From: Theodoxus fluviatilis
Taxonomy: Eukaryota > Mollusca > Gastropoda > Cycloneritida > Neritidae
Direction: 5' to 3'
DNA length: 64,000 nucleotides
Assembly: GCA_034096865.1 (NCBI GenBank)
Contig: JAWQFJ010016620.1
Span: 10,001 to 74,000, forward strand
The translations under genes and the position numbers were made by a program. Under the pieces are notes generated by a model. It did not search any database and had not been told where the DNA came from. It was given only the letters and a program-made list of their open reading frames with translations. This document shows positions 24,601-30,600 of the stretch, piece after piece (position 1 is the stretch's first letter; each line of letters opens with the position of its first letter).

Positions 24601-27600
24601 AGGTAGTGAAAAGCAAGCAGATATGCTACCAGTCTCTGCAAGAACCTATTCAGGTCACGCTGGCCATCTTCCCTATCTACATCCACCATACAGGTGTGTA
24701 GCTGCAGAACTATTAACCTGCTCCTGTCATTTATGTTAACAATCCAAATGTGTGGTTATGTGTCGATCTTATTTACATCTGTTTTACAGTCTCTTAAATT
24801 CATCATCTCTCTCTCTCTCTTGTCTACATCTTACCTATGGATGTGCAGTGTGCATGTGTGTGACATCTACAAATTGTTGTGCAGTACCATACTTGTGTGA
24901 ATGTCACTTGCACACTGCATTGTCATGCCTGCTGCAAATGCTAGTGCTAAGTAAAACTCACATTCTTCAGGGATGAAAATTTTCTGCGGATCCGAGGATT
25001 TCCTCGGATTTGATGACCAATTTGGTCACTCTCGAGATTCGTGTAAATCCGTTGAGACGATTTTTTTTTGGGGGGGGGGGGGGGGGGGTTAGGTTGAACC
25101 GCACCGGCTGATGGGTAGCCATTTTGATGCCTCGGCCAATCGTGCAAATCTGCTTAAAAGCACACGAAGCAGAAATCGGAAACTAGTCTGAACCAATGAA
25201 ATGCTTCAAAAGAGAAGCCTCTGTCTATCCTTTGCTCTGATTGGTCGCTTAACCCGTGCGCATCGCGTGATCATGGCCGAATTGATGAACGGAAACAGCC
25301 GAAGCTAGCTTCGGCTCTTTTCGACATAAGGAACGCACGGCGTCTTTAGTATCAATCAACCAAGTGCAAGAATGCCGAGGAGGGATGCAAAGAAGTTTGC
25401 TACGCTGCATAAATTTGGGAAAAAGCCGAAGAAAAAAAGGAAGACAACGGTAGACTTGTCAACAGCCTCCGGAGCGGAGAATTCGACAGTGATCGCTTCT
25501 GTTTCGATCGACACCGCACCACGTGCGAGCGGCTATTCAGCAGCTACCACTCTTGACTTGAGTCGATCGAAACTACGTCTGGCGCAGCGGTTTCGAGGTT
25601 GCTCGCCTCCTCCTCGTCCGCTCAGAAACGAAGACATGGAGTGGGAACTGACTTATGTCCTGACTCCGGAGCTCGAGAATCGACAGCGCTTGCTTCTAGT
25701 TCTACTTCGACCGAAGATGCACCTCTCGCTAGTAGTGATTCGGCAACCTCCGCACTCACGTTTATCGAATCTGCTTCTGGCGCAGCTGATGTGAAAGCAA
25801 TCGCCTCCTCATCGTCAGAATCTGTCCCTACCAGTGCCAAGAAACTTCGTCGTTTCGAGAGCGAGACAAGAGAGCCAGTAGGTGATGACGAGAACGTGAT
25901 CGTCAGCATGAGCATGATGAACAAGCTCGTCTCCGTGTTCCGCTGCCGAGATTGTGACCAGCTGCCGTTAACAGTGACCAAAAATCAGTCGGCGATGTTT
26001 GGATCAGCGAGCAAGCTGAAAGTGTTCTGCTCAGCATGTGGGAACACCATTACGGCGGTCAGGACCTCACCAAAGACAGGTACTCTGCACAATGGCTATG
26101 ACATCAACCGTCGTCTCGTCGTTGCTGCCACCTCCATTGGGATTGGGTTCACCCAACTGAGACGATTTTTCGCTCTCATGAACATGCCCCCACCCATGCA
26201 TCTGAAGACATGGCAGCTCTACCAGAAGACGCTGCATTCAGGAGTTCATCGGGCTGCTGATAGGCACCTTCAGGAGGCAGCTGAACAGGTTCGACTGATG
26301 TACTTGCAGTTGAAAATTAGTCAGCCAACTCCAGAAGGACGTCTAGATATTGCAGTTTCGTTCGATGGGAGCTGGCACAAGCGTGGGCGAACATCTCACA
26401 GTGGCATTGCTGCTGTCATCGAGATCTACAGTGGACTTGTTGTAGACTTTGTGAGATGTCAAGTTTCAGGAGTGATATGAATAAATGATGCGGAGGTTTA
26501 CACACAACTTCAAATTTTTGGCATGATGTTGACAAGTGTTTGTACTGAACTAGTTGTTGAAAAAACTTCCTGGTGTACTTTTCACAAGGGATTTTTTTTT
26601 ATAACCAATATTCAGACAGCTGATTTTGTAATGTAGGAAGTAATGTCTGAAAATTTAGAATATAAATTATAGTTTTCAGCACCTTTCATAAGCAGATTTT
26701 GACATTTGCTCTTGTTGTCTGAATTTGTACTTGAATTGCTAGGAAATGCCTTCTCAGCACTTATAAATAGCATTTAAAAATTTCGGCGGGGGGCGTTGCC
26801 CCCCTGGGCCCCCCAGCGGGGCGTTGCCCCTGCACCCCACCGGGGCCTAAGTGGCCCCTGGACCCCGGCCAAGTTTCCTCTTTTTTTTTCCATTTGCTGT
26901 TTTCATCCCTGATTCTTACAAAAGCTCCATGGACATGGGTTCCAGCTGGGAAGGGGGGTATCATGCTGCAGCTGCCATATGTGTGTTCTGTTACATAGGT
27001 TCTGGATCTGTCCCAATGCTAAGCATACCACAGCCTTCTTACATTGTCATGCTGATATATGGATGTAATGCTCAACTAGAGGGATGTGTAAACTCAAAGA
27101 CCAGAAATATTCGAGTTAACATGCCAACAATATATATGTCTATAAGTGGATTACCTGTGCAACCTTTGTGTCAAAAGCAGTGGGTTATTTACGTGTAGTG
27201 CATTGTTGAGATGTTGCCCTGGTCCCATTGCAGACGTGGTGGAGGACATCATGAGCTTCTTCCTGGCCCTGTTCCAAGGGCTGCGTGTGCAGATGGGAGT
27301 TCCCTTCACAGAGCAGACCATTCAGACCTTCCTCAACCTCTTCACCAGGTAGGCTAGTGCAGACATCCAGATCTTCCTCAACCTCTTCACCAGGTAGGCT
27401 AGTGCAGACATCCAGATCTTCCTCAACCTCTTCATAGGCTAGCGCAGACATCCAGACCTTCCTCAACCTCTTCACCAGGTAGGCTAGCGCAGACATCCAG
27501 ATCTTCCTCAACCTCTTCACCAGGTAGGCTAGTGCAGACATCCAGATCTTCCTCAACCTCTTCACCAGGTAGGCTAGTGCAGACATCCAGACCTTCCTCA

Positions 27601-30600
27601 ACCTCTTCACCAGGTAGGCTAGCGCAGACATCCAGATCTTCCTCAACCTCTTCACCAGGTAGGCTAGTGCAGACATCCAGACCTTCCTCAACCTCTTCAC
27701 CAGGTAGGCTAGCGCAGACATCCAGATCTTCCTCAACCTCTTCACCAGGTAGGCTAGCGCAGACATCCAGACCTTCCTCAACCTCTTCACCAGGTAGGCT
27801 AGTGCAGACATCCAGATCTTCCTCAACCTCTTCACCAGGTAGGCTAGTGCAGACATCCAGATCTTCCTCAACCTCTTCATAGGCTAGCGCAGACATCCAG
27901 ACCTTCCTCAACCTCTTCACCAGGTAGGCTAGCGCAGACATCCAGACCTTCCTCAACCTCTTCACCAGGTAGGCTAGTAGCGCAGACATCCAGACCTTCC
28001 TCAACCTCTTCACCAGGTAGGCTAGCGCAGACATCCAGACCTTCCTCAACCTCTTCCCCACGTAGGCTAGCGCAGACATCCAGATCTTCCTCAACCTCTT
28101 CATAGGCTAGCGCAGACATCCAGACCTTCCTCAACCTCTTCACCAGGTAGGCTAGTGCAGACATCCAGACCTTCCTCAACCTCTTCCCCACGTAGGCTAG
28201 CGCAGACATCCAGATCTTCCTCAACCTCTTCATAGGCTAGCGCAGACATCCAGACCTTCCTCAACCTCTTCACCAGGTAGGCTAGCGCAGACATCCAGAC
28301 CTTCCTCAACCTCTTCACCAGGTAGGCTAGCGCAGACATCCAGACCTTCCTCAACCTCTTCCCCACGTAGGCTAGCGCAGACATCCAGATCTTCCTCAAC
28401 CTCTTCATAGGCTAGCGCAGACATCCAGAGCTTCCTCAACCTCTTCACCAGGTAGGCTAGTGCAGACATCCAGACCTTCCTCAACCTCTTCCCCACGTAG
28501 GCTAGCGCAGACATCCAGATCTTCCTCAACCTCTTCATAGGCTAGCGCAGACATCCAGACCTTCCTCAACCTCTTCACCAGGTAGGCTAGTGCAGACATC
28601 CAGATCTTCCTCAACCTCTTCACCAGGTAGGCTAGCGCAGACATCCAGATCTTCCTCAACCTCTTCACCAGGTAGGCTAGCGCAGACATCCAGACCTTCC
28701 TCAACCTTTTCACCAGGTAGGCTAGCGCAGACATCCAGATCTTCCTCAACCTCTTCCCCAGGTAGGCTAGCGCAGACATCCAGATCTTCCTCAACCTCTT
28801 CCCCACGTAGGCTAGCGCAGACATCCAGACCTTCCTCAACCTTTTCACCAGGTAGGCTAGCGCAGACATCCAGATCTTCCTCAACCTCTTCCCCAGGTAG
28901 GCTAGCGCAGACATCCAGATCTTCCTCAACCTCTTCCCCACGTAGGCTAGCGCAGACATCCAGACCTACCTCAACCTCTTCACCAGGTAGGCTAGTGCAG
29001 ACATCCAGACCTTCCTCAACCTCTTCACCAGGTAGGCTAGCGCAGACATCCAGACCTTCCTCAACCTTTTCACCAGGTAGGCTAGTGCAGATATCCAGAC
29101 CTTCCTCAACCTCTTCACCAGGTAGGCTAGCGCAGACATCCAGATCTTCCTCAACCTCTTCACCAGGTAGGCTAGTGCAGACATCCAGATCTTCCTCAAC
29201 CTCTTCACCAGGTAGGCTAGCGCAGACATCCAGACCTTCCTCAACCTCTTCCCCACGTAGGCTAGTGCAGACATCCAGATCTTCCTCAACCTCTTCACCA
29301 GGTAGGCTAGTGCAGACATCCAGATCTTCCTCAACCTCTTCACCAGGTAGGCTAGTGCAGACATCCAGATCTTCCTCAACCTCTTCACCAGGTAGGCTAG
29401 CGCAGACATCCAGACCTTCCTCAACCTCTTCACCAGGTAGGCTAGCGCAGACATCCAGATCTTCCTCAACCTCTTCACCAGGTAGGCTAGTGCAGACATC
29501 CAGATCTTCCTCAACCTCTTCACCAGGTAGGCTAGTGCAGACATCCAGACCTTCCTCAACCTCTTCACCAGGTAGGCTAGCGCAGACATCCAGAGCTTCC
29601 TCAACCTCTTCACCAGGTAGGCTAGTGCAGACATCCAGACCTTCCTCAACCTCTTCACCAGGTAGGCTAGCGCAGACATCCAGACCTTCCTCAACCTCTT
29701 CACCAGGTAGGCTAGCGCAGAACAGAGAGGCTTACCCCTCTTTTGGTGGACACAGTTAGTTTCTGTGTTGTCAGGGTGGTCAAAATGACACAAAAAATTC
29801 TGGGAAAATTATTAGCCTGCAGAAATATTTGTAACCCAGAGAGGTTCTAGTTAAAAGTTCTTTCTCTCTGAGAATTACTGTATAATGGATGAACATCCCA
29901 GTTTTTACAGGATCTGTTCCTTCATTCATATGTATGTAACTTGTTTGTGCATTACTCATTATATGCCAACTTAAATGCTTGTCTCTATGCTCTTTGTGGA
30001 CAGGGCAATGCAAGAGAAAATGTTCTATTTTTAATAACTTTACAGAATGGGCACTAAGTATCCAGGTGTTGTCAATTTGTGAACTTCTTGTTTGTCGGCA
30101 AATTATTATTCCAAGATGGAATAGCAGAAATGAATCTGTGTGAAAAGGAGAAATAAATTATCTTCTATGCTGAAATGATGAATACCTGAGGTATCTGACA
30201 CTGGTAGTACATATTTGGTGCTACATTTGATAGAAGCAGTCTTTTAGGTTCTGCTTCACCTTTAGAGTGCCACCAATTTTGTCATTGTTTTACCCCAGAG
30301 CCACAAATTTTATTATGTGTGGTCAAATTCGACACCATGTTTACTTAAAAAATCATCATTTATTACCTAATCAAGCTTTGAAGTAGATTTTTGGAGGGTG
30401 AGTAGAAAAATGGATGGCGCCTACATGGTGCAATTAATGAAAATGCCATAGAATGTTTTTTCAGCTGCTAAAAAATCATGGAACACAGACAACAACAAAA
30501 AACAAACAAATTCACTGTGTTTTCCTACACTGCTCTATTTATTCAAGAATACAACAGCTTTTGATGAAAATGCAAAAGTGCATAGATAGAGTCTCCAAGT

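Follow-up and report, generated by a model that had tools for sequence, protein, structure and literature searches.

The End of an XPO6 Exon and Its Splice Donor Repeated as a Minisatellite in the Snail Theodoxus fluviatilis

Introduction

How is the right 5′ splice site found when the intron that it opens offers dozens of identical ones? The question is posed by the exportin-6 gene (XPO6) of the gastropod Theodoxus fluviatilis, which lies in the window analysed here (the whole stretch of 64,000 nucleotides; contig JAWQFJ010016620.1, positions 10,001 to 74,000 of the forward strand). In this gene, the end of exon 17 and its donor are amplified into a minisatellite with a period of 45 bp and 53 copies inside the intron, as an earlier note on the same DNA had described it (about 53 units). 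The tandem repeats run across the exon–intron boundary of an intact XPO6 gene, a trait shared with the minisatellites called "mirages" in amphioxus. The locus can serve as a natural test of how a 5′ splice site is chosen, since a conserved gene here presents 41 identical strong donors, of which only the first gives protein. If that donor is cleanly used, local strength is not decisive, and exon definition or the order of synthesis must be.

Results and Discussion

Structure of the Array

The exons of XPO6 were located by tblastn with a human XPO6 query, their edges were read, and the 23 exons were joined; a frame check shows the joined model to be open across 1147 residues up to the stop. The exon, donor, and frame given in the earlier note are right, while the number 17 is that of the mapped model and may in truth be 18, because the mapping did not reach the exon that holds the start codon. 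The junction between the GT at 27349 and the AG at 31889–31890, which lies 2.2 kb beyond the array, preserves the frame (TTC ACC AG|G GAA CAG). The coordinates are collected in Table 1.

Tandem Repeats Finder places the array at 27313–29721, with a period of 45, 54.1 copies, and 93% matches. When the array is cut at TAGGCTAG and counted unit by unit, it comprises 54 units (1 exonic and 53 intronic) of 16 distinct sequences, 46 of them 45 nt long, six 40 nt, one 46 nt, and one 48 nt. The repeated stretch consists of the end of exon 17 and 10 nt of the intron. The unit consensus is identical to the final 26 nt of the exon; farther upstream, the intronic copies are one C short and read ATC where the exon reads ATT, and the figure of about 33 exon bases in the earlier note holds exactly for those last 26. 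The exonic unit, at the edge of the array, is without these two changes that the intronic copies have in common. The mean divergence among the 46 units of 45 nt is 4.1%.

A GT is present in 48 of the 54 units. The junction reads CAG|GTAGGC in 41 of them, the authentic one counted, and CAC|GTAGGC in seven, and the six units without a junction carry an identical 5-bp deletion. Loss or weakening of the donor affects 13 of the 53 intronic copies, with no order apparent. Along the array, the intronic unit variants do recur in a higher order with a period of three units (a match of 0.28 at lag 3, shuffle mean of the maximum 0.18, with 5 of 2000 shuffles as high), and both edges of the array pass cleanly into unique intron sequence.

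We have also considered whether the donor is protected from mutation. None of the seven variable columns of the 45-nt units falls in the nine columns GTAGGCTAG, which would happen by chance in about 18% of cases (hand calculation) and is not significant; the idea was rejected. The long open frames through the array were likewise dismissed as genes and taken for repeat artefacts. The one on the plus strand matches only a low-complexity glutenin family, and that below the threshold, and the one on the minus strand has two whole-protein scores above the cut-off, with no single stretch passing.

The best match of the protein among 471 relatives is an exportin-6-like protein of Haliotis cracherodii (70% identity). 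When 28 sequences are arranged in a tree, the XPO6 of the window falls inside the gastropod set of 14 with support 100/99, and outside the sampled patellogastropod, caenogastropod, and heterobranch groups, a position that would suggest a vetigastropod or a neighbouring lineage. In an alignment of the best 120 of the 471 relatives, none has an insertion at the protein junction of exons 17 and 18.

Table 1. Positions of XPO6, its exon-end array, and other tandem arrays (window coordinates unless a contig is given)
Feature	Position	Strand	Remarks
XPO6 (exportin-6) coding region	3588..35058	+	23 mapped exons, 1147 aa + stop; exon with start codon not located
Mapped exon 17	27234..27348	+	115 nt, phase 2 end, TTC ACC AG|G
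Intron 17	27349..31890	+	4542 bp; open reading frame kept by first donor only
Mapped exon 18	31891..31950	+	EQLADTLC...; spliced to exon 17 in model mRNA
Unit 1, exon end and authentic donor CAG|GTAGGC	27313..27358	+	GT at 27349
53 intronic copies, 45-bp unit	27359..29716	+	CAG|GTAGGC kept in 40
40-nt junction-deleted unit	27404..27443	+	five others start at 27849, 28072, 28202, 28377, 28507
CAC|GTAGGC weak-donor unit	28027..28071	+	six others start at 28157, 28332, 28462, 28772, 28907, 29222
GCAGA, right edge of repeat tract	29717..29721	+	same 5 nt as 27313-27317
83-bp array, intron 22	34369-34702		four perfect copies
USP6NL-like exon-end array	C239:21300-31000		42 copies, 38 with GT; TBC exon ending MYLNEE
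Anoctamin exon-end array	C207:163800-173700		36 copies, 36 with GT, 38-bp spacing; exon ending IVFIVVLE
Cys-rich exon-end array	C188:196600-206200		7 copies, 28-bp spacing; exon ending CGKCLRK

Strength of the Donors and Consequences of Their Use

The calculated pairing of CAG|GTAGGC with U1 is −10.7 kcal/mol, which ranks 4 among the 22 XPO6 donors, and that of CAC|GTAGGC is −4.3 kcal/mol. Outside the array, on the same strand of the gene, only 3 of 1696 GTs pair with U1 equally well, and all three are real donors. The donors of exon 15 (AAG|GTAGGC, 24187–24195) and exon 13 (CAG|GTAGGT) are of like type, and the GTAGG-type donor is therefore not peculiar to the array. The dozens of near-identical 5′ splice sites of the earlier note are thus present in the intron as 40 copies of CAG|GTAGGC identical to the authentic one, and nearby sequence cannot separate the right donor from them. 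Masking of the later donors by RNA structure was examined and rejected, the mean unpaired probability being 0.31 at the first donor and 0.25–0.37 at the next nine folded. When joined to the next exon, each of the 47 later GT donors (47/47) places a TAG directly after R895, the last codon of the exon, as had been foreseen.

Rarity in the Gene and Recurrence in the Assembly

Among the 45 exon boundaries of XPO6 (23 acceptors and 22 donors), only the end of exon 17 is spanned by additional copies elsewhere, of which there are 53; nine others have partial matches of 13–18 nt only; the amplification of this exon end is not a chance match. It is also the only boundary crossed by any of the 20 tandem arrays in the gene (units of at least 10 bp; Tandem Repeats Finder rows, overlapping rows merged by hand). 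In the 965-Mb assembly of 19,668 contigs, the unit dimer matches one contig, with at least 26 placements, all inside the XPO6 array; pattern-placement counts, here and below, are lower bounds.

Arrays that begin at other exon ends recur in the same genome, with at least two clear further cases and one probable. These were identified among all 16 donor-bearing arrays behind the first 200 listed placements (10 arrays from 100 placements of AGGTRAGT x3 and 6 from 100 of CAGGTAAGT x3), a sample that follows the order of the first contigs and is too small for a genome-wide rate. A recognisable exon end stands at the array start in 3/10 of the first sample and 0/6 of the second. The other 13 of the 16 do not start at a recognisable exon end; among them, the sequence upstream of the C86 array reads N, and at C207 near 129 kb and at C1257 no exon was seen, but a first AGGT at the edge is not settled. 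The arrays of C254, C414, and C1418 form one family whose open frame is undecided. Its members are 52-bp CAG|GTAAGT arrays whose flanks are alike at the three places, and the family may represent an element that is mobile or was duplicated.

In the first clear case, on contig C239, the exon before the array, once joined to the following one, matches USP6NL (PDB 9ltp_A, residues 1–57 on 168–224, E 1.2e-24) and Pfam RabGAP-TBC (E 9.2e-18); 35 of the 37 later donors lead to an in-frame stop, one leaves the frame open, and one causes a frameshift. In the second, on C207, the copies are exact repeats of the last 15 nt of the exon, and the exons joined over a 1777-bp intron match anoctamin-10 (5oc9_A, E 4.6e-16) with a gap-free junction, as well as Pfam Anoctamin (E 6.6e-16). 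Here, 34/35 later donors give an in-frame stop. The probable case, on C188, has its next exon behind a normal acceptor and finds in Pfam only zinc-finger matches below the cut-offs, the best being FYVE (E 0.0044); we take its Cys-rich exon to be probably that of Spire.

The introns of XPO6 hold many more tandem arrays. That of 83 bp in intron 22 was considered as an exon-end repeat and rejected, because it starts 33 nt past the donor and includes no exon end. Each of its copies carries TTTGATTTTGTATTAG|GTAAGAG, an acceptor and a donor motif adjoining (at 34417, 34500, 34583, and 34666). Long CT/GA dinucleotide tracts occur at 13064–13178, 13511–13733, and 14986–15109, and intron 16 contains a fragment of a Mutator-like transposase (25557–26477; Pfam PF20700, E 2.7e-29).

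Origin and Splicing of the Array

We consider it probable that the XPO6 array is a mirage minisatellite, that is, a tolerated and nearly neutral by-product of slippage in a genome that abounds in minisatellites, with the first donor used and errors removed by nonsense-mediated decay. A duplication of about 45 bp over the exon end and donor would have placed one copy in the intron. Slippage at GCAGA may have been the cause, and the presence of this motif at both edges fits a first duplication at short homology. The intronic founder copy would then have acquired its two differences from the exon and expanded to 53 copies by slippage or unequal exchange, the exon itself staying out of the repeat turnover; the two differences common to the intronic copies point to such a single founder and to an exon outside the later turnover. 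Despite the 40 identical later donors, splicing most likely takes the first one, because that donor is paired with the upstream acceptor, defining the normal 115-nt exon. U1 bound at later sites would be discarded, and any transcript spliced from a later site would meet the TAG at once and be cleared by nonsense-mediated decay. The unit variants with their higher order, the intact frame of XPO6, the conservation of the protein junction, the immediate stop after all 47 later donors, and the arrays at three other exon ends are in line with this course of events. So is the statement in PMC5389562 that multiple U1 occupancy alters site choice and not efficiency, unless crowded sites hinder each other, and the unordered loss or weakening of donors in the intronic copies is what neutrality would allow.

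Three points weigh against this explanation. In classical duplication experiments with identical donors, the site nearest the acceptor can reportedly be favoured, which here would be the last unit and not the first. Donor-bearing arrays are, moreover, not over-represented genome-wide when the reversed pattern is taken as a control: AGGTRAGT x3 has 2454+2334 placements vs 5302+5413 for its reverse, and CAGGTAAGT x3 has 374+484 vs 466+215. This fits a chance origin, yet adds no support for a link to splice sites. Finally, sites 45 nt apart might be crowded enough to hinder each other, the exception made in PMC5389562.

It is possible that the array generates splicing noise or controls the XPO6 level through nonsense-mediated decay, as the earlier note proposed. 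In its specific form, array length would govern how many transcripts take array donors, gain the TAG, and are destroyed, so that the array sets the XPO6 level. The immediate stop behind every later donor, the equal strength of the 40 extra donors, and the in-frame stops at the USP6NL-like and anoctamin arrays would all suit such dosage control. However, most intronic sequence, when read through, gives an early stop anyway, and the arrays of amphioxus are reported to be harmless to regular splicing in the sections cited below; we regard dosage control as unlikely, though deserving of some weight. A self-correcting array, in which the units serve as donor and acceptor and are removed stepwise, or in which a wrong donor choice is mended by a second splice that joins the first donor to the AG of whichever unit was used, is quite improbable. 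AG|GT occurs in 41/54 units, with 82% pyrimidine across the 17 nt ahead of the CAG region, and human UBC uses arrays of such dual-specific sites (PMC10809524, in the part consulted). Joining the first donor to the AG of any unit farther on would restore the mRNA; so much is implied by the repeat itself, and a repair simulation (0.97 correct with repair vs 0.02 without) restates that logic. On the other hand, the unit acceptor scores −1.5 with a matrix built from the 23 acceptors of XPO6 itself, 8th of 22 exon ends and under 22/23 real acceptors (leave-one-out), a value reached by 469/1781 AGs outside the array. Such a poor score counts against both stepwise removal and second-splice repair. 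Another AG lies only ~21 nt upstream of the unit AG, and no good branch point for the unit acceptors was found by eye.

A broader form of the idea would be that exon-end arrays recur throughout the genome of this snail, that they persist because they are buffered by splicing, and that their length may leak into dosage as a heritable, fast-mutating rheostat of several genes. A repeat whose units bring along an exon end, a donor, and an AG behind a pyrimidine-rich stretch would leave the mRNA the same after any splice between copies, and unrepaired transcripts would be destroyed through the instant stop. We hold this to be a long shot. That the array is an assembly artefact, far shorter in the animal, is very unlikely. 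The evidence does come from a single assembly of many contigs, and the exact copy number may be off from the true value, but the 16 kinds of unit, their shared variants, the higher order, and the clean edges on both sides argue against an artefact. We give practically no credence to the U1 small nuclear ribonucleoprotein (snRNP) sink of the earlier note, in which the repeats titrate U1 snRNP. The array does offer 41 strong U1 sites within 2.4 kb, but some 40 sites at one locus face particles that are very abundant in each nucleus, and the proposal is not sustained.

Comparison with Known Systems

The minisatellite of the human interferon-induced gene 6-16 (IFI6) reportedly carries multiple splice donors that are used in transcripts, as the title of a 1995 report by Turri indicates. 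Each tandem unit there reportedly holds a splice donor; the XPO6 array likewise consists of tandem units with a donor, the intronic ones being candidate donors.

The XPO6 array belongs to a known, though rare, class. It is new in its phylum (within the literature searched), in how many copies it has, in the stop that follows at once, and in having counterparts in the same genome. A search of open-licence papers found no mirage in a mollusc, and within that literature the present array extends mirages past amphioxus. With several cases in one genome, the rate at which mirages originate and their cost become measurable.

Other systems share some of the features, as far as the consulted parts of the respective papers describe them. 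UBC and VCX3A contain dual-specific splice-site arrays (PMC10809524), which likewise consist of tandem units with AG|GT; unlike these coding repeats, used on both sides, the XPO6 units are intronic and score poorly as acceptors. In human segmental duplicates, internal tandem repeats at exon–intron boundaries, with about four 30-bp units on average, have changed the gene structure (PMC2812944). The minisatellite of XPO6 also lies at a boundary, but the gene structure is kept. In the Rogers model, where introns arise when a stretch with AGGT is duplicated in tandem, with the potato RdRp as an example (PMC4974935), the duplicated stretch holds AG|GT as it does here; in that model both splice sites come from duplicated copies, whereas the XPO6 acceptor lies outside the array and no new intron is needed.

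The closest counterparts are the amphioxus mirages, minisatellites across exon–intron boundaries in Adh3 and the globins BflGb6 and BflGb9 (PMC3087553, PMC3902484), to which PMC3902484 adds TnC, comparing also PGBD5 repeats. The sections of these papers drawn on here describe them as unstable in length, with regular splicing undisturbed. The XPO6 array resembles them in that AG/GT is present in many, not all, copies, the cluster edges are unhomogenised, and the gene is intact. It differs in its gastropod host, in its 54 units vs 6 and 3 in the BflGb6 haplotypes, in its place at a donor, where an in-frame stop follows at once, and in the occurrence of several cases in one genome. That such arrays vary in length and leave splicing undisturbed was shown in amphioxus; for XPO6, the comparison covers one assembly, in which the unit dimer matches a single contig, and the conserved protein junction.

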